Origin: Stigmatella aurantiaca DW4/3-1
Lineage (GTDB): Bacteria; Myxococcota; Myxococcia; Myxococcales; Myxococcaceae
Assembly: GCF_000165485.1 (NCBI RefSeq)
Contig: NC_014623.1
Coordinates: 3,739,501-3,803,500, forward strand
Reading direction: 5' to 3'
Length of the DNA: 64,000 bases
The position numbers and the translations under genes are program-made. A model generated the notes under the pieces. The model did no database searches. It saw only the letters and a program-made list of their open reading frames with translations, and was not told the DNA's origin. Shown piece after piece: positions 33,456 through 47,478 of the stretch. The number at the start of each line of letters is the position of its first letter. Position 1 is the first letter of the stretch.

Positions 33456-34496
33456 TCAGGTTTCACGGGCCTCCTGCTCCAGGGGTGTGTCGGGGCCAAG
33501 ATGAAGGGCCTCGCGGACGTTGAGTTCGAGGGCCAGGGGCACCTTCGCCAGCCGGTGGGGCTCCCGCGTGAGACGGTGGGCCAGGCGGGCCACCGTGTCC
33601 AGCGGATCCCTGGGCAGCTCCGTCCATTGCCATCCCATGAGGGAGAGCATGGCCATCAACTCGCGGCGCAACAGCCCCTCCTGGGCCAGCAGCAGCGAGC
33701 CTCCCATCCCCACGTGGACAGCCCCGGTCAGGTGGCACCGGGAGGCCACGGCGGTGATGCCGGCCGCCAGCTCCCGGGCCGCCTCGGCCAGCAGCGTCCC
33801 GGCCACGGTGTCCCCGCGAGCCGCCTCGGCGAGCACCGCCGGGGCGAAGCTGGCCGCCGTGAGCTTCGGAGCGCCCGTGGCATGCACCCGCGTGCACAGA
33901 GCCTCGGCGCTGCCGTCCTCGCCCGTCTCCTCGCCCGCCCAGGCTGTGGCCGCTTCGGCCAGGCTCGTCACGGGACCCCGGCCATCGCGCATCCGCACCA
34001 CGGCGGCGAGCCCCCGGCGTCCGAGGTCGAAGCCTCCGCCCTCATCGCTGAGCAGGTACTCCATGCCGGAGGCCCGGGCCCAGCGCCCATCGGCCGCCAT
34101 GGCGGCGTAGCCCGTTCCCGTGCCGCAGATCGCGACCACATCACACGCTCCGGCCGCGACCGGGGGAACGATGTCGTTCATCAGCCACAGCCGCTCGGCC
34201 TGGAGGGGCATCAGCCCGCGCCCCGCCAGCGCCCGCAGGGCGGCCCCCGTCTCCTGGAGGGCCTGGCGTGTCCCGGCATTCGACAGGGCCAGACACGCGG
34301 TGCCCACTTGGTGGAACTCCGGCGGCCGGTTCCGCCACAGCCGATCGAGGAGCCCGGCCAGGACGTCCATGCCCCGGCCCCCCGTGGTCTGCTCGTTACA
34401 ACTCGGCCCTTCGAGCCGGGAGAGGAGGCGGCCCTCGATGGCGAGGCCCAGGCGGGTGGTGGAACCGCCTCCGTCGACGACGAGATCGCACTTCAT
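33456..34496 (-). CDS. BadF/BadG-type kinase (candidate cyclitol or aminosugar kinase)
   Basis: A 346-residue ASKHA-fold ATPase of the BadF/BadG/BcrA family, which includes N-acetylglucosamine kinase. Phosphate-1 motif LVVDGGGSTTRLGL (5-18), Asp108 (MNDIVPP), phosphate-2 CGTGTGYA (124-131) and DEGGGFDLGRRGL (151-163) are intact. Last gene of the pseudo-aminosugar operon; its ATG overlaps the MFS stop (ATGA). In validamycin biosynthesis a cyclitol kinase (ValC, a different, ROK-type family) phosphorylates the cyclitol; I infer that this enzyme takes that step here, or protects the host by phosphorylating the product. Confidence 0.82.
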   Translation of the reverse strand: MKCDLVVDGGGSTTRLGLAIEGRLLSRLEGPSCNEQTTGGRGMDVLAGLLDRLWRNRPPEFHQVGTACLALSNAGTRQALQETGAALRALAGRGLMPLQAERLWLMNDIVPPVAAGACDVVAICGTGTGYAAMAADGRWARASGMEYLLSDEGGGFDLGRRGLAAVVRMRDGRGPVTSLAEAATAWAGEETGEDGSAEALCTRVHATGAPKLTAASFAPAVLAEAARGDTVAGTLLAEAARELAAGITAVASRCHLTGAVHVGMGGSLLLAQEGLLRRELMAMLSLMGWQWTELPRDPLDTVARLAHRLTREPHRLAKVPLALELNVREALHLGPDTPLEQEARET

Positions 34497-35686
34497 GAAG
34501 CCACTGCCCGGGGTTGCAGCCGGGGCAGGGCGAACGCCGCCAGCGCCAGCACCCCGCCGGCCGCCGCGAGCATGCCCCACGTGGTCCTCAGCCCCCACGC
34601 CTGGGCGATGGCACCGCACAGGGGGGGACTGGCCAGATAGCCGAAGTAGGCGAGCAGGGTGACCCGCGCGATGGCAGCGCCCCGGACCGAAGGGTCCGTG
34701 ACCTCGGTGGTCATGCTGAACACCGTGGGGATGCCCCCTGCCATGCCGAGGCCCGCCACCGCGAAGCCGAGCAGGGCGACGATGGGGTGGGCCGCCGAGA
34801 GCACCACCACCAGTCCGGCCGTGGCGCTGGCGCCGGCCAGGGCCAGTTGGGTCCTCCCGTCGATCCGCGTGGCCAGCCGCTGGGCCACGAGCCGGCCGAG
34901 AAACAGGCTCCCCATGTAGACCGCGGGGCCCGTGCCCCCCAGCACAGGGGGCGCGCCGAGCACCGTCTCCAGGTACAGCGCCGACCACTGCTCGACCGCG
35001 TTCTCCACCAGGTGGACCGCCGCTCCCAGCAAGCCCAGGGTCAGCAGGAGTGGAACGCCGCGCAATCCGCCTCGGGCGGCTTCCTCGCCACCGGCTGGCA
35101 CGGGCAACTGGGTCAGGTTGGCGGGCACGGTGAGAAACACGCACAGCGCCAGCACACAGATGAGCAGCGGCAGCGGCAACTGGAGCTGACGGCCCAGCCC
35201 CGCCCCGGTGCTGGCGAGCACCACGGCAAGCGGAAAGGCCGCATGGGCCATGTTGAACAGCTTGCGCCCCATCGCCGCCTCCAGCGCCGCGACGCGCGCG
35301 TTGAGGGCGATGTCGAGGGCTCCCGAGGTGGCGCCGACGAAGATGAGCGCGATTCCCAGCGCCCACGGCGAGGTGACGAGCCCCAAGGGCACCACGGACA
35401 CGGCGAAGGCGGCCAGGGTCATCGGCAGCGCCCGGTTGCGCAGCCGGTCGACCCACGGGCCGAAGAGGAGCATCGCTGGCAGGGCCCCCGTCGCCACGCC
35501 CAGCAAGGACAGCCCCAGCTCCCGCTCACTGGCGCCCGTGGCCCCCTTCACCGCGGGCAGCAGCGCGCCCCAGGCGCCCCAGAAGATTCCCCAGGCCCCG
35601 TAGGCCAACAAGACACCGGCAATGGCCCCCCGCGGGTTGCTCAGCTTCGTGGTCACCCCGTCCTCCTTGCGCGCCGTCTGTCTCAT
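34493..35686 (-). CDS. MFS transporter (probable product exporter)
   Basis: A 397-residue major facilitator protein with 12 predicted helices, of the YbjJ/bacterial drug or sugar type: GVLLAYGAWGIFWGAWGALL in helix 1, GPWVDRLRNRALPM in the 2-3 loop, and a central hydrophilic loop near residue 200. It sits within the biosynthetic operon with 4-base ATGA overlaps on both sides, so exporting the pathway product is the likely role. Confidence 0.85.
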   Translation of the reverse strand: MRQTARKEDGVTTKLSNPRGAIAGVLLAYGAWGIFWGAWGALLPAVKGATGASERELGLSLLGVATGALPAMLLFGPWVDRLRNRALPMTLAAFAVSVVPLGLVTSPWALGIALIFVGATSGALDIALNARVAALEAAMGRKLFNMAHAAFPLAVVLASTGAGLGRQLQLPLPLLICVLALCVFLTVPANLTQLPVPAGGEEAARGGLRGVPLLLTLGLLGAAVHLVENAVEQWSALYLETVLGAPPVLGGTGPAVYMGSLFLGRLVAQRLATRIDGRTQLALAGASATAGLVVVLSAAHPIVALLGFAVAGLGMAGGIPTVFSMTTEVTDPSVRGAAIARVTLLAYFGYLASPPLCGAIAQAWGLRTTWGMLAAAGGVLALAAFALPRLQPRAVAS

Positions 35687-36744
35687 GGCACGACCAAAAC
35701 CTTACCGGGCCGTGGTTTCGGCCCTCCAGCGCTCAGTTCCACGGGCAGTTCTGTCAGGCCAATGCGCCGCAGCACCAGCCGCTCCAGCGCCCAGGTGGCG
35801 TCCGGGGCCGCCAGCCACCGCAGGCCCCGTGTGAAACAGGACGGTTCGGTGCCATAGCTGCCCGCTACCGTCAGAGGTTTCTGTCCCCAGTGCACGCAGA
35901 CAGTGCCTTCACGGCGGCGCAAGGGATCCAACGCGAGCTCAATGCCAGCCTCGGCGAAGCGGTCCTCTTGCTGCGTTCCTCCATATAAAAGGATGGCGCC
36001 GCCCGGAGCCACCGCGTCCAGGGCCCAGCGCAGCCAGCGTGCCTCGATGAAGGCGGTCGCCAGCACGATGGCCTCCGGGGGCGGCCGGGGAGGCTCGTCC
36101 TGTCCGAGGGCTTCGGGAGGAAGCAGTCCGGTGGCGCGCAGGAACTCCAGCTTGTCCATGCCCGAGTTGCGCAGGCTGACCGTGGCCCCCGCCGCCTGGG
36201 CCGACAGGGCGATGAGTGTTCCGGCGATGCCCGCGCCCACGACGAGGACATGGCGTCCAGAGAGTTGCCCGCCCAGTGCCTGAGACACCCGGTCGAGGCA
36301 GTGCACCGCACACGCGAGCGGCTCCGCGAACACCGCCCGCTCCAGGGAGACGGTCCGGGGCACCCAGTGCAGGGCCTCGGTCAGCTCTTTTTCCGTGCCA
36401 TCGGCTGGCATGAGATCGGCGAAGGCCGTTCCCCGGTTGAGCGGGCGGTTGGGATCCAGGCACACCCGGTCCCCCACCTCGAAGGGGGCTTTGCCCCAGT
36501 GCGCGATGACCTCTCCCACGACTTCATGGCCGAACTGGCTCGCGCCCTGGCGTTGCCGCGCGGCCTCCTTGTAGTCGGAGCGGCAGATGCCCAGCAGCAG
36601 GGGCCGCACCATTACCCCCGCACGGTGGCGGGGAGACCAGTCCAGGCCAGGGCAGAGCCGAGGGCCCTCTGGCGTCAGGGCCACGTGCCGCAGCTCGGGC
36701 TGCGGGCTGCCCGTGTGTCGCGCCTCTCCGTCACGCCAGGGCAT
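35683..36744 (-). CDS. Zinc-dependent MDR dehydrogenase (ValN-like role)
   Basis: A 353-residue medium-chain dehydrogenase. Catalytic zinc ligands: Cys54 (LGICRSDY), His73 and Glu74 (FGHEVVGEV), and Glu in FAEPLACAVH. The Rossmann motif is VVGAGIAGTLIALSA. The four-cysteine structural zinc lobe is absent, as in several MDR subfamilies. ATG 36744 overlaps the upstream aminotransferase gene by 14 bases. In validamycin-type clusters a zinc oxidoreductase oxidises or reduces a cyclitol; the operon context suggests the same here. Confidence 0.82.
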   Translation of the reverse strand: MPWRDGEARHTGSPQPELRHVALTPEGPRLCPGLDWSPRHRAGVMVRPLLLGICRSDYKEAARQRQGASQFGHEVVGEVIAHWGKAPFEVGDRVCLDPNRPLNRGTAFADLMPADGTEKELTEALHWVPRTVSLERAVFAEPLACAVHCLDRVSQALGGQLSGRHVLVVGAGIAGTLIALSAQAAGATVSLRNSGMDKLEFLRATGLLPPEALGQDEPPRPPPEAIVLATAFIEARWLRWALDAVAPGGAILLYGGTQQEDRFAEAGIELALDPLRRREGTVCVHWGQKPLTVAGSYGTEPSCFTRGLRWLAAPDATWALERLVLRRIGLTELPVELSAGGPKPRPGKVLVVP

Positions 36745-37984
36745 GGCACGCCTCTCCGAAGCGGGCGAGGAGCTCATCCACCTCTTTCTCGGTGATGACG
36801 AGCGCCGGGCGGATCTCGATGACGTGGCCGCGCCCATGCTCGGAGACCCGGGTCATCAATCCCTGGCGCAGCAGGGCTGCCTGCAATCCCAGCGCTTTCG
36901 CGGGGGCGGCCTCTCCCCGGGGCCCCACCACCTCCAGCCCCAGCATCAGTCCCACCCCCCGGACCTCTCCGATGAAGGGGTGGTCCGGGGCGAGCCGGGC
37001 CAGCCCCTCGCGCAGGCGCGTTCCCACCTGCCGGACGTGGGGAAGGAAACCCGGGCGCGAGACAATCTCCACCGTCTTCAGCGCCGCCGCCGCCGCCACG
37101 GCGTTGCCCCCGCCGGTGAAGCCGTGGTGGATGCGCGGCATCCCCATCAGCCGCTCCTCGGTGAGGATGGCCCCCATCGGAAACCCGCTCCCCGTCAGAC
37201 CCTTGGACAGGGTCATCATGTGGGGGGAGACGCCAAAGTAGTTCGCGGCGAACATCTCGCCCGTGCGGCCAAAGCCCGTCTGGATCTCGTCGAAGATGAG
37301 GACGATGCCCCGCTCTTCGCAGAACCGCTTGAGCTCGGGGAAATAGCGCGGCGGGGGCACGATGTTCCCGCCGACCCCGAAGATCGGCTCGATCATCACG
37401 CACGCCACGCTGCCCGAGCTGGCGTAGCGGATGAAGTCGTCGATCCGGGACACGCAAGGCAGCTCGCAGTGCTCCGCCGTCTGGCCGTAGAAGCACCGTG
37501 AGCACGAGGGCTCTGGGACGTGCAACGCCCCCGGCATGACATAAGGGAAGGGGGCCCGGTGAAACGAGAAGCCCGAGTACCCGATGGTGGCCATGGTTTG
37601 GCCCAGGTGGCTCCGGAACATCGTGATGACATCCCGCTTGCCCGTGACGTGCTGGGCGATGCGGATGGCGCCCTCGTTCGCGGTGGAGCCGCCCGAGCTG
37701 CGCAGGTGCACACGCGACAGGTTCGAGGGGGCCAGGGCCACCAGCGCCGCGGCGAGCTGCTCGACGGGCTCTGACAGGTAAGAGGAGCCCGTGTGCACCA
37801 GCCGGTCCATCTGGGCCTTCGCGGCGGCCATCACCTCCGGGTGGTTGTGGCCCAGCAGGAGGTTGAAGGTGCCCGAGATGCAGTCGAGGAACTCCCGGCC
37901 GTCCCGGGTGCGCACCCTCACCCCCGCGCCCTCGGTCAGGACGATGTCGCCGGTCTCATAATAGAAGGGGGGCGGGACGGTCAT
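36731..37984 (-). CDS. Class III aminotransferase (ValM-like role)
   Basis: A 417-residue PLP enzyme: LLLGHNHPEV (42-51), SGGSTANEGAIRIA (97-110), Asp232 in IFDEIQTGFGRTG, and PLP lysine Lys261 in TLSKGLTGSGFPMG. A cysteine cluster (Cys161, 164, 173, 177) in CSRCFYGQTAEHCELPC is seen in some class III enzymes. It would install the amine on a keto-cyclitol or keto-sugar, giving the nitrogen that the next enzyme joins to a second ring. Overlaps the pseudoglycosyltransferase stop (ATGA). Confidence 0.88.
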   Translation of the reverse strand: MTVPPPFYYETGDIVLTEGAGVRVRTRDGREFLDCISGTFNLLLGHNHPEVMAAAKAQMDRLVHTGSSYLSEPVEQLAAALVALAPSNLSRVHLRSSGGSTANEGAIRIAQHVTGKRDVITMFRSHLGQTMATIGYSGFSFHRAPFPYVMPGALHVPEPSCSRCFYGQTAEHCELPCVSRIDDFIRYASSGSVACVMIEPIFGVGGNIVPPPRYFPELKRFCEERGIVLIFDEIQTGFGRTGEMFAANYFGVSPHMMTLSKGLTGSGFPMGAILTEERLMGMPRIHHGFTGGGNAVAAAAALKTVEIVSRPGFLPHVRQVGTRLREGLARLAPDHPFIGEVRGVGLMLGLEVVGPRGEAAPAKALGLQAALLRQGLMTRVSEHGRGHVIEIRPALVITEKEVDELLARFGEACHALA

Positions 37985-39426
37985 CGGCGGTCCCCGGGGG
38001 CTTCGCCGAGCCCCAGGCTGGAGAGCTGGTGCCGCACCCAGGTCGGCAAGTCATACTGGAGGACAACTTCTCGCCGCCGCCGCGCGGCCTCGGCCCGCTC
38101 GGCGGGGGAGGCGCGCAGGGCTTCTCGCAGCGCCTGGGCCTGCTCGACGATGTCGAAGGGGTTGACGAGCCGGGAGACGCTGGCGAGTGCCTCGGCCGCG
38201 CCGCAGCGCTCCGAGAGGATGAGCACCGCGTCGCGCTGGTTGAAGAGCGTTCCCTCGAAGGCCGTGAGGTTCTGCCCATCCACGGTGGAGTTGAGCAGCA
38301 GCACATCGGCCCGGCGCAGGGCCGCGAAGGTGCCATTGACGCTGTTGGTGCAGACCAGCCGGACGGTCTCCGTGCCCAGGCTCCGGTTGGCCGCCTCGAC
38401 GGCGCGGCCCACCCGCTCCCGGTACTGCTGGTTGGCCTCCACCGAGAGCCGGTTGGGATTCATCTTCACGAGCAGCCGGGCGTGCCGCAGGCCTGGGTCC
38501 TCTTGCAGCGCCGCCGTGAAGGCGAGGACGGCCCGCTCGGCGTTCTTGATGGGATCGGTGCGGCCGGAGTGGACAACGAGGGGGTGATCGCCGATCCACG
38601 CGGCCAGCTCGGGAGAGACCTCCCCCTCGCGGATGTCCAGGGCCGAGGGGCTATAGCCGAGCGCCATCGCCTCCACCCGCACCGCGCGGCCTTCCCAGCG
38701 CACGGTGGCGGACGGGACGTCCACGCGTGCCTCCGGCAGCAGATCCTCCACACAGGCCAGGAAGTTCCTCACCCAGCGCGTGGCGAAGAAGGCGATGACG
38801 TCGGCCCCCAGCATGCCGCGCAGCAGCCCCTCCCGCATGGGCCGGGGCAACATCCGCCAGTAGTCCGCCGAGGGCCAGGGGATGTGGACGAAGAGCAACT
38901 GGGGCGCCTCGGGGCGCTGGGCCCGGAGGTGCTGGGGAACGCCGCACATCTGGTAGTCGTGCAGCAGGTAGACGGGATTGGGGCAGGCCTTCGAGCGCTC
39001 GAGCAGCGTGGTGGCGAAGGTCTCCGTGAAGGTCTCGAAGTGCTTCCAGGCCCGGTGGCTGCGCGTGTCGAAGGTGGGCTTCGTCCAGCCATCCCAGAGG
39101 TAGTTGTTGCTGGCCCAGAGCAGGTCCGCGGTGATGATCTCCTGCATGTCCTCGAAGACGGCCGGATCATGCTGGAGCAGGTGGAGGAGAACGGGCGCGG
39201 CCGCGCTCACCTTCACCTCCATGCCTCGGGGATGCTGGGACGCCACGTGCCGGTCCTCGTCCGTCATGGCGCAGGCAATCCAGGACACGCCCAGCTGGCT
39301 GGCCAGGTCGGCCACCACGTTGGCGGTTCCTCCTGGGGCGAGCTCGGCGGTGAGCGCCCCCGAGACATCGCGGTGGTACGTCACGGGGGCTCGCTTGCTG
39401 GCGAGGAAGATGCGTTCTCGGCTCAT
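37981..39426 (-). CDS. VldE/ValL-like pseudoglycosyltransferase (GT20 family)
   Basis: A 481-residue member of the trehalose-6-phosphate synthase (GT20) family that follows the validamycin enzyme VldE/ValL rather than OtsA. Diagnostic stretches are IFLASKRAPVTY (6-17), LAPGGTANVVAD (29-40), LHDYQMCGVP (155-164), VHIPWPSADYWRMLP (180-194), VVHSGRTDPIKNAERAV (284-300, with Arg289 and Lys294) and STVDGQNLTAFEG (380-392) where OtsA has DGMNLVAKEY. VldE couples GDP-valienol with validamine 7-phosphate through a C-N bond without a glycosidic carbon. Same length and organisation as VldE. It sits between the reductase and aminotransferase genes of the operon. Confidence 0.87.
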   Translation of the reverse strand: MSRERIFLASKRAPVTYHRDVSGALTAELAPGGTANVVADLASQLGVSWIACAMTDEDRHVASQHPRGMEVKVSAAAPVLLHLLQHDPAVFEDMQEIITADLLWASNNYLWDGWTKPTFDTRSHRAWKHFETFTETFATTLLERSKACPNPVYLLHDYQMCGVPQHLRAQRPEAPQLLFVHIPWPSADYWRMLPRPMREGLLRGMLGADVIAFFATRWVRNFLACVEDLLPEARVDVPSATVRWEGRAVRVEAMALGYSPSALDIREGEVSPELAAWIGDHPLVVHSGRTDPIKNAERAVLAFTAALQEDPGLRHARLLVKMNPNRLSVEANQQYRERVGRAVEAANRSLGTETVRLVCTNSVNGTFAALRRADVLLLNSTVDGQNLTAFEGTLFNQRDAVLILSERCGAAEALASVSRLVNPFDIVEQAQALREALRASPAERAEAARRRREVVLQYDLPTWVRHQLSSLGLGEAPGDRR

Positions 39427-39441
39427 GGGACAATCTCCTGA

Positions 39442-40350
39442 TCAACGGGGGGGAACATCGAGCAAGGGGCCGAGGCGAGCGGCCCCCGCGGCGAGGCCCG
39501 AGATGCTCAGCCCGGAGAGCTCCGGGAGGTGATGCAGCCGCAGGCTGCGCAGGCAGGCATTGGCGGGGCGGCAGGAGTAGCGCCCGGCGGCGCGCGCCAC
39601 GGGCCGCACGAGGTTGGGATCCTGGCCGAGGCTCTGGGCGATGAGCCGGCCCCACTCGAAGCGGGACACCCGGTCGGGACCGGCCAGGTGGAGTACCCCC
39701 GACGGGCCCCCGGGAATCAGGCGCGTGAGGACCGCCGCGGCATCGTCGACGAGAATGGGGGTGTTCCAGTGGTCAACGGGCGCCTGCACGGTCTGCCCAG
39801 ACCGCACGGTGTCCGCCACCACCATGAAGAAGTTGCGCCAGCCGCGTCCCGGGCCGCGCGGCTCGTATCCGTAGACGAGGCTGGTGCGGACGATGAGGGC
39901 GCCCGGGTCCGCCGCGAGCAGCACGCGCTCGGCGGCCAGCTTGGCCCGGCCATAGGCGTTGGCGGGGGAGGGGGCCCGGGATTCGTCGTAGCCGGTGTCC
40001 TGGCCGTCGAAGACGTTGTCCGTCGAGATCAGCACCTTGCGGACCGTGGGCGCCTCCTGGCACAGGTGGGTGGCGATGCCCGCGTGGGTGGCCATCGCCG
40101 CCTCGGGTGCGCTCTCGCAGCCAGTGATGTCGGAGGGGCCGTGCACGAGCACCACCGCGTGGGCCCCGGTGGCGCCCACCGCCTCCGCGATGGCCCCGGG
40201 CCGCGAGGCATCCAGGCCCCGCCAGTCCCCCGCCCACGGGCCTTCGGGGGGGTGACGGGAGGACAGCACCACCGAGTGCCCCGCTTCCCGCAGCGCCTGA
40301 CCGAGCCGTCGGCCAATGAAGCCGCTGCCGATGATGAGCACCTGCCTCAT
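39442..40350 (-). CDS. SDR sugar/cyclitol reductase (RmlD-like)
   Basis: A 302-residue extended SDR protein: GSGFIGRRLG (8-17), LISTDNVFDGQ (107-117), and the catalytic YGRAK (133-137), close to dTDP-4-dehydrorhamnose reductase. Starting at ATG 40350, seven bases after the isomerase stop. In this operon it probably reduces a keto group of a cyclitol or an activated sugar. The substrate cannot be read from sequence. Confidence 0.82.
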   Translation of the reverse strand: MRQVLIIGSGFIGRRLGQALREAGHSVVLSSRHPPEGPWAGDWRGLDASRPGAIAEAVGATGAHAVVLVHGPSDITGCESAPEAAMATHAGIATHLCQEAPTVRKVLISTDNVFDGQDTGYDESRAPSPANAYGRAKLAAERVLLAADPGALIVRTSLVYGYEPRGPGRGWRNFFMVVADTVRSGQTVQAPVDHWNTPILVDDAAAVLTRLIPGGPSGVLHLAGPDRVSRFEWGRLIAQSLGQDPNLVRPVARAAGRYSCRPANACLRSLRLHHLPELSGLSISGLAAGAARLGPLLDVPPR

Positions 40351-40357
40351 GAGGGCC

Positions 40358-41320
40358 TCACCACCAGCGCTCCTGCCGAGGGCTGTGCGGCAACAGGGGG
40401 CGGATGAAGTCGAGGGCGAGGCGGCTTCCCTCCCAGCGGCCGAGGGTGCTGTCCTCATTCTCCACGGCGACATCGCCGGTGTAGCCCGCCAGGTGGAGCT
40501 CGGTCAGGATGCGGCGCCAGTCGAGCTGGCCCCAGCCGGGAATCCGGAAGCGGAAGTTGCGCTCGGCCTCGGAGTAGTACCGGTTGTGCGCCAGGAAGTG
40601 CCGCCGGGTGACCGGACGGAGCACCTCGGCATCCTTGGCGTGGACGTGCCAGATGCGGTTGCCGAACAAGCGGATGAAGTCGACGGCGTCCACCCCGGTC
40701 AGGGCCAGGTTGCCGGTGTCGACGTTGAAGCCCCACTCGGCGAATTCCCCCAGGACGTCCAGGCTCCGGGCGGCGCTCTCCGTCTCGTAGACAAGCTGCT
40801 TCGGGTGCAGCTCGTGGGCGAAGCGCACGCCATACTCGCGGTAGACCGGCAGTACGGTCCCCATCACCTCGGCGCACTGGGCGAACTGCGAGGCCCACCC
40901 ATCCTCCTGTCCGGGCCAGCGGAACCAGCGCGCATAGTCCGGGCACCCGATGAAGCCCGCGACCAGGCGCACCCCCATCGCGTCGGCCGCGCGGGCGCAG
41001 TCCTGCATGCGGCGGATGGCGTAGGCCCGCTTCTCCGCGGGGGTGCCCTTGTAGATGCCGTCCGTCACCTCGTGGAGAGGCCCCAGCAGGAGCTGCCCAT
41101 CCGCGTGGTTGCTGATCGCCGAGATGGCGAGGCCCGCCTCCGCCAGCAGCCGCTGGACCGCGCCGCGCCGCGAGGGTTCGAGCAGGTCCTCCAACTGGAG
41201 CATGCGGGAAGAAGTGTCGACCGCCAGATCGATGCACTCCAGGCCGAGCCCTTTCACCCGGGAGACGGCCTCCGCGAGCGGCAGGTCCATGTAGGCCGTG
41301 GACGCGAGGCTCAGCCGCAT
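40358..41320 (-). CDS. TIM-barrel sugar-phosphate isomerase/epimerase
   Basis: A 320-residue xylose-isomerase-like barrel (AP endonuclease family 2). Metal ligands are in FAHELHPKQL (Glu), NVDTGNLAL (Asp), WHVHAKDAE (His) and VAVENED (Glu). Relatives include inosose isomerases IolE/IolI that act on keto-inositols. Here it is placed right after the cyclase and may epimerise the first keto-cyclitol, the job done by the unrelated VOC protein ValD in validamycin. ATG 41320 lies inside the end of the cyclase gene (10-base overlap). Confidence 0.82.
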   Translation of the reverse strand: MRLSLASTAYMDLPLAEAVSRVKGLGLECIDLAVDTSSRMLQLEDLLEPSRRGAVQRLLAEAGLAISAISNHADGQLLLGPLHEVTDGIYKGTPAEKRAYAIRRMQDCARAADAMGVRLVAGFIGCPDYARWFRWPGQEDGWASQFAQCAEVMGTVLPVYREYGVRFAHELHPKQLVYETESAARSLDVLGEFAEWGFNVDTGNLALTGVDAVDFIRLFGNRIWHVHAKDAEVLRPVTRRHFLAHNRYYSEAERNFRFRIPGWGQLDWRRILTELHLAGYTGDVAVENEDSTLGRWEGSRLALDFIRPLLPHSPRQERWW

Positions 41321-42531
41321 GCCGGGGCCTCCTGCGCGACGAGTTGGCACGCGGCGTCGTATTGGCCCCGGGTGATGTCATCGATGATGACGCTGTGGTC
41401 GATCGCCGTCGGCATGACCAGCAAGAGCCGTCCGTTGCGCACCAGCCGGGCGGTCTCCAGGTGCTGCCACACCACCTCTCGCAGATCGTCTGGAACGGTG
41501 ACGGGCAGCCGCAGCTTCTGAAGCAGGCGGAGGATCCGGCGCAGGGTGTCCACGGATGTGAGCCCCAGCCCCGTGGAGATCGCCGTGACCGTGGCGGTGC
41601 CGATGGCCACCGCCTCGCCGTGCCGGTAGCGCACGAAGTGCGTCGCGGCCTCCAGGCCATGGCCCACGCTGTGCCCGAGGTTGAGCAGCCGGCGCAGGTC
41701 CTGCTCGAAAGGATCGGGCGCGAGCAGCTCGAGCTTCTTGCCGATGGCCGCCGGGATGATGGGCCCCAGACCTTCGATCAAGCGCTCCGGCGCGGCCTGG
41801 TCCAGGGGCCAGGCGGTGGACATCGGGAGCCGCTCGAGCTGCTCGAAGAGGCCGGGCGTTCCAATGAGGGCCACCTTCACCGCCTCGGCCAGACCGTTGA
41901 TGACCTCCGCGAGGGGCAGGGTGGCGAGACACGAGGGATCAATGACCACCAGATCCGGATGGTAGAAGCCGCCGATGAGGTTCTTGCCCGTGCTGTGGTC
42001 AACGCCGACCTTGCCGCCGATGGCCCCATCCACCTGGCCCATCAAGGACGTGGCGACGTTGACGTAGGGAATGCCTCGCAGGTAGGTCGTCGCGACGAAG
42101 CCCACCAGGTCGCAGAGCACGCCTCCCCCCAGGGCCACGAGGAAGGTGCGGCGGCGCACGCTCCGCGAGCGGAGCTCGTCCCAGAGCCGGTGGGCCTGGG
42201 CGATGGACTTCGAGGGCTCGCCCGCGGGGATGACGATGCACTGCACGGGGGCGCCCGTGGCCGAGATCCGCTTCGTCACGAGCTCCGCGTACAGCGGGCC
42301 CACGTGGTTGTCGGTGATGATGACGGCGGAATCGGCCTCATTGGCCGCCATCACCGGGCGGAGCAGCTCACCGAGCCGGGCCAGGGTGCCCCGGCCAATG
42401 ATGATCTCGTAGCGGTCCTCCCGGTGGACGGTGACGCGATAGCCCGTCTTGCCCCCGTCGAGGGCGAGCGAGCCGCGATGAGGAGACTTCACGTCATGGG
42501 CGAGGATGGGTGTGGATCCAGTGGAAGGCAT
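41311..42531 (-). CDS. Sugar-phosphate cyclase (DHQ synthase superfamily)
   Basis: A 406-residue cyclase. NAD-binding motif ALGGGVLCDLVGFVATTYLR and metal/substrate motifs VDGAIGGKVGVDHSTGKNLI, INGLAEAVKVALI, NLGHSVGHGLE and YRHGEAVAIG are all present. In this superfamily DHQ synthase, 2-deoxy-scyllo-inosose synthase and sedoheptulose-7-phosphate cyclases (EEVS, EVS, DDGS) differ in these same motifs; ours keep the DHQS-type GH..GH and GGK patterns rather than the AcbC/ValA type. Given the VldE-like neighbour, a C7-cyclitol is the likely product. ATG 42531 has CGGGAG at good spacing; the TTG at 42573 is less likely. First gene of the operon. Confidence 0.85.
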   Translation of the reverse strand: MPSTGSTPILAHDVKSPHRGSLALDGGKTGYRVTVHREDRYEIIIGRGTLARLGELLRPVMAANEADSAVIITDNHVGPLYAELVTKRISATGAPVQCIVIPAGEPSKSIAQAHRLWDELRSRSVRRRTFLVALGGGVLCDLVGFVATTYLRGIPYVNVATSLMGQVDGAIGGKVGVDHSTGKNLIGGFYHPDLVVIDPSCLATLPLAEVINGLAEAVKVALIGTPGLFEQLERLPMSTAWPLDQAAPERLIEGLGPIIPAAIGKKLELLAPDPFEQDLRRLLNLGHSVGHGLEAATHFVRYRHGEAVAIGTATVTAISTGLGLTSVDTLRRILRLLQKLRLPVTVPDDLREVVWQHLETARLVRNGRLLLVMPTAIDHSVIIDDITRGQYDAACQLVAQEAPACG

Positions 42532-42716
42532 TGGGTCGGCTCCCGGGCAACGCGAGGTGTCTGCCGCGAGCAAACAGGTAGTGGGAGCCAGCGTGGCCAG
42601 GGAGTGGGAAACGGGCGATGCGGCGTTTTTCCACTCTCCTCAGGTACGGGGCTGCTGCTTACTTCCATGCAGCAAGAGGCTGCGAAATCGCGTCCGGCGG
42701 GAGAGGAGCGTCGTCC
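42532..42716. promoter_or_regulatory. Divergent promoter region of the pseudo-aminosugar cluster
   Basis: The 185-base gap between the leftward eight-gene operon and the rightward nucleotidyltransferase gene must hold both promoters. No convincing -10/-35 pairs or operator repeats stand out by eye. Confidence 0.4.
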
Positions 42717-43808
42717 ATGGAGCACGTGCGAGCGGTGTTACTGGCCGGCGGGCGAGGCGTTCGCATGGGCCGTCTCGGGCAGGGGCGGCTCAAGCCGCTG
42801 GTCCCGTTCGGAGGCCAGTGCCACCTGATCGACTTCAGCCTCTTGAATTGCCGTGCCTCGGGCATCGAGGAGGTGCTGCTGCTGTCTCAGCACAACGAGG
42901 CACAGCTGATTCATTACTTGCTGGCGCACTGGCACGGCCAAGGGTTGAAGATTCACTTTGGCCCGTATCAAGGCATCACCCCGGAGACCTGTGAACACGT
43001 GCTGGCCACGGTGCACCGGCCGGCCGAGGCCGGGACGGGCGATGCCTTGCGGCTCAATGCGCCCTATCTCTTTGGAAACGGCGTGCGGGATGTGCTCGTG
43101 CTCCATGCCGATCATGTCTATCGTTTCGACTACCGGCCGATGCTGGCGTTGCACCGCGAGCGCCGCGCGGTCTTGACCCTGGGGTATCAGCGCATCGCAC
43201 GCGAAGCCGTGTCTCTGTTTGGGATGGTGGAGCTTGGCGCGGAAGACAGACTCCTGCGCTTCGTCGAGAAGCCGGAGCAACCCACGGCCGATACAGTGTT
43301 CACCGCGGTGGCCATCTTCTCCGCGGAGCCGTTGCAACAGTATTTGGAAACACTGTCCCGGGGGCCCTGGCAGGCCGACATCAGCCGGGATGTCATCCCC
43401 GCCATGATTCAGGCCGGGGAGCGCATCTTCGGCTACCGGTTCGAGGCGTACTGGGAAGACATTGGAACCTCGGCGCGCTACCTGGAGGCCCACCGGCGTC
43501 TCGTGTCGGATCGGCCCACGCTGAGCCTCGCGCAGTTGCCGCACACGCTCCAGTCCACGTCCGCGCGCCACTGGGTGCGCCACGCCGGTGGGCTGCGCCA
43601 CACGCTCACCGGGGACGATGTGCGGTGTGAGGGCCGGGCCGAGCGCTCGGTGCTGTTTCCAGGCGTGGTCATCGGTCCGCGCGCGGCCGTGCGCGACAGC
43701 GTCGTGTTGCCCGGGGCGCACATCCTCGGGGACAGCCAGGTCGAGGGCAGCATCGTGCTGGACGGGGAGCACCTGCGCGACGCTCACCTCCGGGACAGAA
43801 CGGAATGA
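42717..43808 (+). CDS. GlgC/ValB-like nucleotidyltransferase
   Basis: A 363-residue sugar nucleotidyltransferase related to glucose-1-phosphate adenylyltransferase. The N-terminal LLAGGRGVRMGRLGQGRLKP (8-27) is the nucleotide-binding loop; LHADHVYRFDY, RFVEKPEQP and AYWEDIGT follow; the C-terminal third is a left-handed beta-helix (hexapeptide) end. ValB of validamycin belongs to this family and makes GDP-valienol from valienol 1-phosphate. ATG 42717 has GAGAGGAG upstream; earlier in-frame starts lack this. Divergent from the operon, it would supply the activated donor for the VldE-like enzyme. Confidence 0.83.
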   Translation: MEHVRAVLLAGGRGVRMGRLGQGRLKPLVPFGGQCHLIDFSLLNCRASGIEEVLLLSQHNEAQLIHYLLAHWHGQGLKIHFGPYQGITPETCEHVLATVHRPAEAGTGDALRLNAPYLFGNGVRDVLVLHADHVYRFDYRPMLALHRERRAVLTLGYQRIAREAVSLFGMVELGAEDRLLRFVEKPEQPTADTVFTAVAIFSAEPLQQYLETLSRGPWQADISRDVIPAMIQAGERIFGYRFEAYWEDIGTSARYLEAHRRLVSDRPTLSLAQLPHTLQSTSARHWVRHAGGLRHTLTGDDVRCEGRAERSVLFPGVVIGPRAAVRDSVVLPGAHILGDSQVEGSIVLDGEHLRDAHLRDRTE

Positions 43809-43850
43809 AGCACAGCGGCCTTGGGCCCCAGCGAGGAGAAAGAGAGATTC

Positions 43851-44661
43851 ATGGCAAGTGACATGGTTCATGCCGCGGACGGCGGGCGGCGGGCCTCCGT
43901 GCTCTCCCGGAGCGGTTGGGCATGGGAGTTCCTTCGCCGCAATCCCGTCTATCAGTCCGAGTGGAAGGCCCTGGCGGCCCAGGGCCGGCTTCCCGTGCAT
44001 TTCCACGCGGGCGACCTGGAGGTGCGGCGGGTCGCCGAGAGCCACGAGGAGGTAGCCCGTTGGGGACTCCTGGCGTTTCGTGGATCCATCGCTCGATGCC
44101 TGGTCGACCTCGGTCTTCTGGGCCAGCGGTGCCTTGCCCCGGCTGAATGCCCGCATCCAGACCGGCCCCGCCAGCGCGCGGGGGTTCCGGCTGGATCGCC
44201 TGCGGTGCCAGAAGAGTCTGCTGCTCGGCCCCGAAGGCGGAACGTTGATGCTCACGGGCAATGGGGAGACGGTCACCCTGGGCTGCGAGGGGGAGGTGGA
44301 GGCCCTGCTCTCGCCCGGCGCGGCCTTCGTGCTCTGGGTGCCCGGACCGCAGGATCTCGATGGGGCCATCGCCGCGCTGGATGACTTCCGGACGCTGCTC
44401 GGGCCCGGCATGCAGGAGCCGCTTCCCCGCTCCAAACAGCTTCAGAGCTATCTCATCGCGCTGGATGCGGAGCGGGCGGGGGCCTCGTACCGGGACATCG
44501 CCATCTTGCTGTACGGCGAGGAGGCGGCGGCGAAGCACTGGAGGAATCCCGCCCGGCACATGAAGGATGCCGTCCGCTACGCCGTGCGGCGCGGGTGGGC
44601 CCTCATGGAAGGGGGGTACCGCCGCTTGCTGCTGAAACCGCAGTGGGCGGGGCCGGCATAG
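43851..44661 (+). CDS. DUF6499/DUF2285 regulator split by +1 frameshift
   Basis: Frame 1 from ATG 43851 encodes a DUF6499-type start (SGWAWEFLRRNPVYQSEWKA) and reaches ARWGLLAF. The homologous continuation VDPSLDAWSTSVFWAS is in the +1 frame from 44077/44080 to the stop at 44661. That second part is a DUF2285 domain ending in AILLYGEEAAAKHW and RRLLLKP. Skipping one T of TTT at 44076-44078 joins them into a 269-residue protein. DUF2285 proteins are transcription regulators, and FseA of the Mesorhizobium symbiosis island is made by programmed +1 frameshifting between such parts. A mutation or assembly error is the alternative. It lies 42 bases after the nucleotidyltransferase gene, same strand. 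Confidence 0.72.
44073..44082 (+). other. Putative +1 frameshift site (GCG TTT C GTG)
   Basis: At the junction of the two frames the zero-frame codons are GCG TTT CGT. A tRNA-Phe (anticodon GAA) on TTT can re-pair one base on with TTC, putting the ribosome in the frame TTC GTG GAT. GTG 44080 could also serve as a separate start for the DUF2285 part. Confidence 0.4.
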
Positions 44662-44764
44662 GTTCACCACTGGACGTTTGGGGCCCAGCTGTCGCGCCGC
44701 CAGTTGGCGCGACCGGGGGGCGTCTCCATCTCACGGGGAGGTTTCAGGGCGAGGAGGGGGCTGG

Positions 44765-45583
44765 ATGCGGCGCATCGCGTGGGTGGTGCTGTGGGGGGTC
44801 ATGCTCGGGACGATGGGCGGGTGTTCGCTCCGCAAGGTGTCCCGGAGCGCTGCCTCGGGTGCCATCGAGTCGCTCGGTGAGCCCGGCGAGGAAGAGGTGT
44901 TCCGGCGCAAGGTGGCGCGCGTGGCGGACCGGTTCCTGGACAATGCCCTCAAGGATCCTCCCGATGCCCGGGAGATCGGCCGGGACACGGCCAGCGGCAT
45001 GCTGGAGGGCGTCGAGGGCTACCTCTCCGAGGAGGGGCGGGGCGCGCGGCTCGGTGAGGCCGGGGCTGGGTTCGCCCAGGAGCTGGTCCCCGTGCTGGCC
45101 GCGGAGATGCGGAACATGGCCCCCACCAGCCGGTTGATCCTCGAGCAGAGCGGGCAGGGGCTCGTGGATGGGCTCTCCTCGCGCCGGGAGGAGATCGCCG
45201 CCCTCATGGCCGAGATCGCCGATCAGGTGGGCCGCTCCATGGCCAGCGCCATGGCCCAGCAGCTTCGCCACGAGATGCAGCAGCAGGCCGCCGCGCCGCC
45301 CAACGAGGCCCTCTCCCAGGCCGTGGAGGGCGTCGCCTACCGGGCCGCCGCGGCGGGCATGCGCGGGGCCATGAACGAGCTGGGGCAGACCGTCCCCGAG
45401 TGCAAGGACGGCCCGTGCGCTCCCCAGGTCGTCTCCCAGCTCAGCCGCTCGGCATTGGGCGGCGCCGTGGCGGCCCTGATGCCCGTCGTGCTCGTGGGGT
45501 TCATCGCGTTCGTGGTGGGAGTGGGGGTGGCGGCGTTGGCCGCGCGGGCCCTCGTCCGCCGCCAGACCGCGCGCCGCGTCTGA
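44765..45583 (+). CDS. Lipoprotein with C-terminal membrane helix
   Basis: A 272-residue protein starting at ATG 44765 (GAGGAGGGGG upstream). Lipobox GTMGGCSL puts the lipid on Cys20. The body is almost all amphipathic helix without Cys until VPECKDGPCAP near 218-228, and a strong transmembrane helix spans about 240-264 (VALMPVVLVGFIAFVVGVGVAAL region). It may be tethered at both ends. No family recognised. Confidence 0.68.
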   Translation: MRRIAWVVLWGVMLGTMGGCSLRKVSRSAASGAIESLGEPGEEEVFRRKVARVADRFLDNALKDPPDAREIGRDTASGMLEGVEGYLSEEGRGARLGEAGAGFAQELVPVLAAEMRNMAPTSRLILEQSGQGLVDGLSSRREEIAALMAEIADQVGRSMASAMAQQLRHEMQQQAAAPPNEALSQAVEGVAYRAAAAGMRGAMNELGQTVPECKDGPCAPQVVSQLSRSALGGAVAALMPVVLVGFIAFVVGVGVAALAARALVRRQTARRV

Positions 45584-45593
45584 CGGCAGCGCC

Positions 45594-45890
45594 TCAGTGC
45601 GGCCCCGTGTCCTCCACGGGGAGCGTCAAGGTCCGCCGCACCAGATCCCGGCAGGCTGGGCAGATGACGCCCGAGCGTTCCCAGTGCACCTGCTCCTCCC
45701 ACTCGCTCGGATCCTCGGGGCCCTGCTCGAGCTGCTGGAGCAGGGAGTCGAGGGCTCCTGTGTCTCCAGGGGTTGGCTCGTCGAGCACATCCTGCTCGCC
45801 CTGGAGGACCAGGGTGAAGCGGTAATACAGCTCGCGCGAGGAAATGGAGCGCCCGCAGGTGGCGCACATCTTCGGCGAAAGTTCTGTCAC
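45594..45890 (-). CDS. Small zinc-ribbon protein
   Basis: A protein of about 98 residues with CATC near the N terminus and CPAC near the C terminus, the two halves of a zinc ribbon, with an acidic Glu/Asp/Gln-rich insert between (GALDSLLQQLEQGPED). GTG 45890 or ATG 45869 are the likely starts; a TTG at 45908 is also in frame. Function unknown. Convergent with the lipoprotein gene, 10 bases apart. Confidence 0.6.
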   Translation of the reverse strand: MTELSPKMCATCGRSISSRELYYRFTLVLQGEQDVLDEPTPGDTGALDSLLQQLEQGPEDPSEWEEQVHWERSGVICPACRDLVRRTLTLPVEDTGPH

Positions 45891-45954
45891 GGACAGGCAG
45901 TGTATCAACTACCCCCTGTTGGCGGGCGGGGCGCAGCATGCTGTCCGGAGGGGT

Positions 45955-46143
45955 CTCCCTTTTGTATGGATTTCATAGATTTTATCGATTTATGAGAGAT
46001 GAAAGACATCCCTGAAACAGCCGAAATTGCCGTCTTGACGCACGGCGCGCACTCTTCAACGCATCTCTGCTGCTGACACTGAAAATAGAGCGCCAGGGCA
46101 GAGGCTCTGAGTTGAACGGCCGAAGTTTTCAGGGGGTTGAATC
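45955..46143 (+). promoter_or_regulatory. AT-rich promoter region of the secreted Ig-like gene
   Basis: 45958-46010 is much richer in A/T than its surroundings and contains TTTCATAGATTTTATCG followed by ATTTATGAGAGATGAAA, an imperfect inverted repeat (TTTCAT...ATGAAA; CATA...TATG). It precedes the gene at 46144 by about 150 bases, leaving a long leader. Promoter and operator roles are inferred. Confidence 0.35.
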
Positions 46144-47478
46144 ATGAAACATACTGTATGGGGTGTCCTGGTGGGCGCTGGAGCTGTCCTGGTGGGAATG
46201 CCTGCGGACGCTCAGACCCGTTCTCCCTGGCAGATGCACCATGGGCTGGAGGCCTCCGTGGCCAACCCTCACGGGTTGCTGGAGTTCTCGTGCACGCCCA
46301 CGGAGCACGGCGATCGCTGTGAATACGACGTGGCGACCATTCCTCCGAGTGAGGAGGCGGGGTGGGCCCCCGCGCCGAACCCAGACACGATTGGCTTCTC
46401 CATCCCCTCGCGCGTCTGTCAGGCGCCGGTGGCGTGCTTGGCGTATGGGGATTTCACCTATTTCCAGACGTTCGTGGACGTGCCCGCGAACGTGGTGGTG
46501 ACCACGTTCACCATCGCCTTCGATGGCATGGATGATGGCTCGCGGGTGACGCTCTTCAACTCCGCGTACCCCGACGGGCTCGTCATCCCGGGCAGCTACG
46601 TCTACCTGCGCGGCTCGGGCACGGCGAACCTGGGCGCCTATGTCAAACCGGGCGAGCGCCAACGGGTGGTCGTCACGCAGGTGGATGACTGCTGCTCGGA
46701 CAACAGGCTGCAGACGGCGGAGGTGGTGCTCAACGGCGAAGTCGTCGAGCTGCCCGAGGGGTGCCATGGCCCCAGCGATTGCGATGATGGCAACACCTGC
46801 ACCACGGACGTGTGCAGGCCCGATGGGACGTGTGAGCACCCGCTGTTGGTCTGCGCCGGGGGCCAGTCCTGCGGCCAGCCGCCCGGAGGGGGAGAGGGCG
46901 GGGATGGCGACGAGGAGGACGGAGGGGTCATCATCGGCATCCAGGAGCAGAACGCCTGCCCCGAGGGCGCCACGGACCTCACGATGTCGGTCCGCGGCAC
47001 CCAGGACATGGTGCTGGAGTGTGGCCAGGACCATTGGGCGGATCCCGGTGCCCAGGCGTGGGACGTGTCCTGCAATGCCCTGGAGGTGCACGTGTTCAAC
47101 TCGGGCCCTGACGGGTATGGCCCGGGCCCGAACCCCTGCGCCGAGGGCACCTACTCGGTGCAGTACGTCGCCTGGGATGCGAAGGGCCGCACGACGAGCA
47201 CCGTGCGCTCGGTGCGGGTGGAGGACACCACGCCGCCCGCGTTCCGGCTCAAGGGGCCGGGGCACATGACGCACACCTGCGGCTCCCAGTGGGTGGATCC
47301 GGGTTGGGAGGCGATCGATGCCTGCTACGGCAACATCACCCCCGAGGTGCACTGGACCGGCTTCCCGAACGGCTGGGTCGAGGGCTCCTACACGGTGGTG
47401 TACACGCTGACCGACAGCGGCGGGAACAAGGCCCCGACGCTGACGCGCACCGTGGACGTGGTGGACTGCCCCTGGTAG
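46144..47478 (+). CDS. Secreted protein with DUF5011 Ig-like domains
   Basis: A 444-residue protein with a signal peptide (residues 1-23, ADA). Residues ~60-200 form a beta-sandwich-like region; ~205-250 are a Cys-rich segment (DCDDGNTCTTDVCRPDGTCE) common in myxobacterial exoproteins; a Gly/Glu/Asp linker follows. Two DUF5011/HYR-type Ig-like domains end the protein (LECGQDHWADPGAQAWD and HTCGSQWVDPGWEAIDACYG, then VVYTLTDSGGN). It is likely a surface or matrix protein. It starts after a long AT-rich leader. Confidence 0.75.
   Translation: MKHTVWGVLVGAGAVLVGMPADAQTRSPWQMHHGLEASVANPHGLLEFSCTPTEHGDRCEYDVATIPPSEEAGWAPAPNPDTIGFSIPSRVCQAPVACLAYGDFTYFQTFVDVPANVVVTTFTIAFDGMDDGSRVTLFNSAYPDGLVIPGSYVYLRGSGTANLGAYVKPGERQRVVVTQVDDCCSDNRLQTAEVVLNGEVVELPEGCHGPSDCDDGNTCTTDVCRPDGTCEHPLLVCAGGQSCGQPPGGGEGGDGDEEDGGVIIGIQEQNACPEGATDLTMSVRGTQDMVLECGQDHWADPGAQAWDVSCNALEVHVFNSGPDGYGPGPNPCAEGTYSVQYVAWDAKGRTTSTVRSVRVEDTTPPAFRLKGPGHMTHTCGSQWVDPGWEAIDACYGNITPEVHWTGFPNGWVEGSYTVVYTLTDSGGNKAPTLTRTVDVVDCPW

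Follow-up and report, generated by a model that had tools for sequence, protein, structure and literature searches.

A pseudo-aminosugar gene cluster with an EVS-like cyclase and a candidate frameshift-type regulator in Stigmatella aurantiaca DW4/3-1

Pseudoglycosyltransferases are rare enzymes, and validoxylamine is the trehalase inhibitor behind a crop fungicide. The closest described systems are the validamycin cluster of Streptomyces hygroscopicus (val/vld), the actinomycete clusters with a cyclase of the 2-epi-valiolone synthase (EVS) type and, for regulation, the FseA activator of Mesorhizobium. A survey of 250 ValL homologues with their clusters appeared in 2025, and this kind of cluster is therefore known; the words myxobacter and Stigmatella are absent from its main text (PMC12041759). 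The established role of FseA is in the running of a conjugative element; its synthesis depends on a +1 ribosomal frameshift of low frequency, and the protein has the motif AWEFLRRN and binds two inverted hexamers 15-16 bp apart (PMC10359603). The present text concerns a 64,000-nucleotide stretch of the S. aurantiaca DW4/3-1 genome (the window; NC_014623.1, positions 3,739,501 to 3,803,500), in which a first-pass annotation had proposed a nine-gene pseudo-aminosugar cluster at 33456-43808. Judging from gene identities, conservation, phylogeny, active-site residues, co-occurrence and a change of the selected frame, ten genes are quite probably responsible for the synthesis of a validoxylamine-type C7N pseudo-disaccharide and for its regulation. 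A survey of sequenced myxobacteria counts three saccharide clusters of aminoglycoside/aminocyclitol subtypes that resemble no known cluster (PMC6616573), and the window cluster may be among them.

The coupling enzyme and the extent of the cluster

The GT20 protein of the cluster scored 537-541 bits against five VldE/ValL chains, with 541 bits to VldE; the highest score with a trehalose-synthase chain was 175 bits. A quick-search tree comprised 39 rows, and in it a single branch (SH-aLRT 100) parted 26 VldE-type rows, with which the protein groups, from 13 OtsA/TPS rows. The first-pass annotation had asked for such a tree and had held a place inside the true trehalose-6-phosphate synthases to be incompatible with its reading; the protein did not fall there. 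The VldE ligand residues given in PMC3441724 and PMC3288074 were compared in an alignment without rows L083 and L074, and 18 of the 20, guanine and acceptor residues that differ in OtsA among them, were identical, the other two being conservative changes (R321 to K, S388 to T). Q96, N323, N325, N361, T366 and Q385 of VldE were present in the GT20 protein and different in all 11 OtsA/TPS rows aligned, which bears out the earlier claim that VldE-specific residues are kept where trehalose synthase differs. The gene is adjoined by cyclase, nucleotidyltransferase and transaminase genes, the company by which PMC12041759 recognizes such proteins. A divergent trehalose-6-phosphate synthase in a trehalose operon would likewise belong to the GT20 family, but this reading is contradicted by the tree, the residues and a separate OtsA-type protein fused to a trehalose-phosphatase domain (OtsA-OtsB) in the genome; it is exceedingly improbable, and we rejected it on the tree and the VldE residues. 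Judged by its sequence, the GT20 protein is a VldE/ValL-type pseudoglycosyltransferase and no trehalose synthase.

All nine genes proposed at first were present with named families (Table 1), and the cluster is real, complete-looking and under selection: the aligned stretches of the nine genes carried no in-frame stop in four relatives, and their dN/dS values were 0.06-0.37. Eight genes form a minus-strand operon in the order cyclase, TIM barrel, SDR, GT20, aminotransferase, zinc dehydrogenase, MFS transporter and kinase, with the GlgC-like gene divergent. With the starts used in the dN/dS comparison, cyclase and TIM barrel overlap by 10 bases, gaps of 7 and 15 bases lie on either side of the SDR gene, GT20 and aminotransferase overlap by 4, aminotransferase and zinc dehydrogenase by 14, and the zinc dehydrogenase/MFS and MFS/kinase pairs by 4 each; the tight operon of the earlier annotation, with overlaps of 4-14 bases and gaps under 16 bases, was thus confirmed.

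The pseudoglycosyltransferase was found in five of 195 Myxococcota genomes, namely four of the seven of the same genus (S. aurantiaca itself included) and one of another genus of the same family, when the best 8 first-look candidates per genome were scored at E 1e-60; the GT20 proteins of the four other genomes were 92-95% identical. The block shared with the genome of the other genus (L031) runs from 33523 to 44630, one gene beyond the nine. While the nine genes stood, the boundary at 43808 did not, since the conserved unit reaches 44661 and takes in a tenth, regulator-like gene, and the cluster is to be extended to that position. Carriage on plasmids was considered and rejected, the GT20 protein having no match among 72,556 plasmid records at E 1e-60. 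A search for the empty site in three same-genus genomes without the cluster gave best places that match the right flank only at its rho end (about 2832-4660 of the 4689-base query), and weaker, shorter matches elsewhere, from which we derive no insertion site. From the end of the cluster to rho (44662-47478), the flank is common to the cluster-bearing species of the genus, and the best places in the three cluster-free genomes start at about rho; it makes a variable spot beside that gene.

The cyclase and the early steps

The first-pass annotation had given the cyclase the ValA role, which did not hold, as the protein lies outside the EEVS/DDGS group (SH-aLRT 99) and shares most distinguishing states with the actinomycete EVS-type cyclases. 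The tree contained three groups, 3-dehydroquinate synthases (DHQS; 11 rows, 88), EEVS/DDGS (12 rows, 99) and the cyclases of the actinomycete clusters (the actinomycete group; 15 rows, 99; one of its rows, L065, is probably from Actinosynnema mirum), and the window cyclase formed with four close relatives a fourth branch (100) outside the DHQS rows and EEVS/DDGS. Columns were counted without rows L028, L058, L059 and L060. Where the actinomycete group differs from DHQS (16 columns), the cyclase has the actinomycete state in 8, and where that group differs from EEVS (29 columns), in 15. It has the DPxExDLRR and IGGKVxVDH motifs and the K-to-R change of the actinomycete group, and LNLGH and GHxxGH at sites where ValA shows VDFGHSFSP. 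The cyclase looks EVS-type rather than ValA-type, an assignment against which several points weigh: its branch is long and apart from the actinomycete group, the placement near the EEVS/DDGS and actinomycete groups is weak (89), identity to the actinomycete type is about 37-40%, and the remaining columns hold 3 DHQS and 5 other states of the 16 and 7 EEVS and 7 other states of the 29.

The cyclase scored higher with DHQS chains than with ValA (214 versus 153 bits), and its best PDB and NCBIfam matches were DHQS/aroB (283 bits, below the cut-off of 305), as would be expected of a second DHQS with the cluster fed by a shikimate-type precursor; most DHQS catalytic residues, at what we take to be their positions, are also retained. 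The residue states of the cyclase make this second-AroB reading very unlikely: the DHQS Lys of DKK is replaced by Arg and the T/N of GGKTxVNH by V/D, as in the actinomycete group. The genome also holds another DHQS candidate, and the EVS clade, as the paper naming the class puts it, would pass for DHQS absent data (PMC5133447). Three cyclases were found in the genome. Asamizu et al. reportedly showed 2-epi-valiolone synthase activity in 2012 for enzymes of A. mirum and S. aurantiaca DW4/3-1, and the EVS-like window cyclase is the natural candidate for the S. aurantiaca enzyme, because the two other cyclases are DHQS-like and of the EEVS/DDGS group; the cyclase is thus possibly known.

The EEVS/DDGS-group gene (L027:12447-13667, at about 1.69 Mb of the genome) encodes a second non-AroB sugar-phosphate cyclase. 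It is neighboured by open reading frames (ORFs) for a 2OG-Fe(II) oxygenase and a bestrophin, and no aminotransferase, GT20, nucleotidyltransferase or other recognised aminocyclitol gene was seen among the nine ORFs scanned there, several of which may be shadow frames.

The nearest solved chains to the TIM barrel are 2zds, named a putative DNA-binding protein, and 8ro4, a 2-hydroxy-3-keto-glucal hydratase, and E, D, H and E positions, which we take to be metal-binding, are kept across 18 aligned rows. The closest solved chain to the kinase is a MurNAc/GlcNAc kinase; its PF01869 match came from a version without 22 N-terminal residues. The CRSD and GHE motifs of the zinc dehydrogenase are kept across 23 aligned rows.

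Among 16 loci found by the GT20 search, homologues of the cyclase, SDR, GT20, aminotransferase and zinc dehydrogenase occurred in all 16, of the GlgC-like protein in 14, of the kinase in 13 and of the TIM barrel in 11. All nine families were present in 8 of the 16, and in L065 and L066 besides; L005 and L006 are cut by contig ends, and the MFS match was partial in L003 and at 32% in L008. Neither TIM barrel nor kinase was matched in L013, L014 and L015. Two of these, L013 and L015, are from Noviherbaspirillum (Betaproteobacteria) and carry a VldE-type cluster with an EEVS/DDGS cyclase and a HAD gene. A glyoxalase-fold epimerase and a ROK kinase were found in L014, the validamycin-like reference cluster, and not among the nine window genes; ValC is ROK-like (PMC9200736). 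Two sets of early steps appear to lead into the same later ones, because L014, with its glyoxalase fold, ROK kinase and ValA-type cyclase, differs in the former from the clusters with TIM barrel and BadF kinase. The earlier claim that several roles are filled by families other than those in Streptomyces therefore held for the TIM barrel in place of ValD and the BadF kinase in place of ValC, but this is typical of EVS-type clusters and not specific to the organism.

The tenth gene

The regulator-like gene (43851-44661) spans two frames, the first with a PF20109 domain and the second with a PF10074 domain. This is the DUF6499-DUF2285 layout known from FseA, and the AWEFLRRN motif is present in the first domain. 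PF10074 was confined to the five cluster-bearing genomes among the 195 of Myxococcota (best 23 first-look candidates scored), and the regulator is the sole PF10074 match of its own genome. In the five genomes, the variable columns at codon positions 1/2/3 numbered 20/13/36 for frame A before the site and 37/29/94 for frame B after it; they favour frame A before and frame B after, and selection therefore changes frame near 44060-44085. A conserved candidate +1 site lies between the domains, with TTT CG at 44076-44080 invariant in the five genomes, and a frameshift at about this point is proposed from this pattern. The joined regulator was 28-35% identical to plasmid-borne DUF2285 proteins, and a Mesorhizobium homologue has CTG TTT CGC between the two matched halves. 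NCBIfam had no family for the joined regulator, and PADLOC had none for two neighbours. These features suggest an FseA-like activator whose coding sequence changes frame, probably at a TTT-C +1 shift site. Split DUF6499/DUF2285 genes annotated as two proteins, possibly frameshift genes as well, were seen on Mesorhizobium and Azospirillum plasmids (L093, L094).

Some observations do not favour this reading. The 20-nt invariant run at the shift site is unexceptional, as the block holds 56 runs of at least 18, and in three of the five genomes start codons of frame B occur upstream of the junction, so that a separate second protein is possible there; a GTG at 44080 is also present in four of the five, the fifth having GCT and a frame A that stops directly after the site. 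None of the start codons at the junction or before it, though, is common to all five genomes, and 21 of the best 25 of 67 plasmid records match both halves in a single piece. A pseudogene is at odds with the purifying selection on both halves, each in its own frame. The gene might also be an unrelated neighbour: it lies on the strand opposite the eight-gene operon, the known role of FseA is in a conjugative element, and the frameshift is read from sequence. Against this, the block common to the other genus ends at the 3' end of the regulator, and the family occurs in the same five of 195 genomes as the cluster. Taken together, an unrelated neighbour, separate proteins or a pseudogene are unlikely explanations.

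The FseA-like activator, made only upon a +1 shift at TTT-C, would probably drive the divergent cluster promoters. An inverted repeat in the gap between them, a candidate operator, keeps its arms in the five genomes and was likened to the FseA box by its spacing; such repeats are not rare, with 15 overlapping matches in 20 kb. A scan of 42300-44800 for sigma-70-like promoters found none, with 0.3 expected.

Table 1. Features of the cluster and of the adjoining regulator, with window coordinates
Feature	Coordinates	Strand	Basis
BadF/BadG-type (NagK-like) sugar kinase, proposed C7-cyclitol kinase (ValC role, other family)	33456..34496	-	PF01869; homologues 13/16 related loci
MFS transporter, proposed exporter	34493..35686	-	PF07690
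Zinc-type alcohol dehydrogenase (ValN/AcbL-like role)	35683..36744	-	PF08240; homologues 16/16 loci
Class III aminotransferase (ValM role)	36731..37984	-	PF00202; homologue 58-64% identical in 16/16 loci
VldE/ValL-type pseudoglycosyltransferase (GT20), by sequence	37981..39426	-	541 bits to VldE; tree; 18/20 ligand residues
RmlD-like SDR reductase	39442..40350	-	PF04321; homologue 16/16 loci
IolE-like TIM-barrel enzyme, proposed epimerase/dehydratase (ValD role, other family)	40358..41320	-	PF01261
Sugar-phosphate cyclase, 2-epi-valiolone-synthase-like	41311..42531	-	similarity search, tree, distinguishing columns
Inverted repeat GAGTGGGAAA-15-TTTTCCACTC, candidate operator in divergent promoter gap	42602..42636	.	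spacing like FseA box; arms kept in 5 genomes
GlgC-like nucleotidyltransferase (ValB role)	42717..43808	+	PF00483, glgC-like; homologue 14/16 loci
FseA-like activator, first half (DUF6499, AWEFLRRN motif), frame A	43851..44078	+	PF20109; motif as in PMC10359603
Candidate +1 ribosomal frameshift site TTT C|GTG	44076..44082	+	TTT CG invariant in 5 genomes; selected-frame change
FseA-like activator, second half (DUF2285 / RovC DNA-binding), frame B	44080..44661	+	PF10074

Proposed product and comparison with known systems

In the proposed pathway, the cyclase would convert sedoheptulose 7-phosphate to 2-epi-valiolone, the TIM-barrel enzyme would invert C2 and/or remove water, the kinase would phosphorylate C7, and the zinc dehydrogenase and SDR would lead to valienone/valienol-type intermediates. 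The aminotransferase would then give a validamine-7-phosphate-type acceptor and the GlgC-like enzyme a GDP-valienol-type donor, which the VldE-type enzyme would couple with retention, forming a non-glycosidic C-N bond. The 7'-phosphate would be cleaved by housekeeping OtsB-type enzymes or retained, without a dedicated phosphatase, and the MFS protein would export the product. The predicted product is most likely validoxylamine A or its 7'-phosphate.

The phosphatase is where the myxobacterial clusters depart from the others. An all-against-all ORF comparison, although dominated by shadow frames, pointed to a HAD gene, and a HAD hydrolase was present in 17 of the 18 non-myxobacterial clusters examined (the exception being L016) versus none of the five myxobacterial ones. 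Six HAD proteins of related clusters, used as queries, had no match in the 64-kb window, so the earlier statement that no phosphatase is seen in the cluster proved right. The absence is a real difference of the myxobacterial clusters, and since the five have no phosphatase the product may differ. This absence weighs against a validoxylamine-type outcome, as does the lack of a ValG-type glycosyltransferase (GT2), looked for within the nine genes. A different pseudo-disaccharide, either a new stereoisomer or a phosphorylated product acting as a trehalose-6-phosphate mimic, might result from the EVS-like route, the reaction of the TIM barrel and the missing phosphatase. The EVS-like front end, a TIM barrel merely 31-34% identical to its actinomycete counterparts, the HAD counts and a best match of the genome to one related-cluster HAD that is partial, at 40 bits, are consistent with such a product. 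On the other hand, the GT20 protein retains the VldE residues for donor and acceptor, which speaks for unchanged substrates, and two trehalose-phosphatase matches (OtsB-type) in the genome could serve. We regard the different product as a minority possibility and validoxylamine A or its 7'-phosphate as the preferred reading. One might speculate, quite tentatively, that the biosynthetic cluster took over an FseA-type, +1-frameshift-gated activator from conjugative elements, with rare translation events switching on a trehalose mimic that possibly stays phosphorylated.

No paper on the whole cluster or its regulator was found among the matches listed in our literature searches, and 'biosynthe' and 'myxo' are absent from the main text of the FseA paper (PMC10359603), a narrow check and no full literature search. 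As far as searched, the lineage-wide lack of a phosphatase and the regulator of the frameshift type are new. The cluster is a full EVS-like gene set outside actinomycetes, and its compact operon makes testable how 2-epi-valiolone would feed aminocyclitol synthesis, with a TIM-barrel enzyme and a BadF kinase indicated for the early steps.

Like the regulator, FseA (msi172-msi171) of the Mesorhizobium symbiosis integrative and conjugative element has DUF6499 and DUF2285 in two frames, the AWEFLRRN motif and a +1 shift. Unlike FseA, the regulator is linked to a biosynthetic cluster in Myxococcota, and none of the neighbours scanned was recognised as a conjugation gene; for a frameshift-controlled activator of the FseA type, a tie to a natural-product cluster would be unusual. 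The reference for the validamycin cluster of S. hygroscopicus (L014, 10 of 43 listed ORFs scanned) has in common with the window a VldE/ValL GT20, a class III aminotransferase, a zinc dehydrogenase, an SDR and a GlgC-like transferase; it also holds an MFS protein, but the window protein does not match it. In place of the EVS-like cyclase, TIM barrel and BadF kinase of the window, L014 holds an EEVS (743 bits to ValA), a glyoxalase-fold protein and a ROK kinase. It also carries a GT2, a HAD hydrolase and a GH15 trehalase-like gene, and none of these six is among the nine window genes. The GH15/trehalase-N gene (L014:17406-19283) adjoins the validamycin-type cluster and is possibly a self-resistance copy of the target. 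The EVS-type clusters of Actinosynnema, Saccharothrix, Umezawaea, Actinoallomurus and others carry the same families side by side, as in the window, but in other gene orders and strands, with a cyclase 37-40% and a TIM barrel 31-34% identical, a HAD phosphatase in all but L016, and no FseA-like gene in the fetched stretches. The window cluster would work like the validamycin pathway but lacks three of the marks of a validamycin cluster, and it is best seen as a myxobacterial form of the EVS-type cluster.

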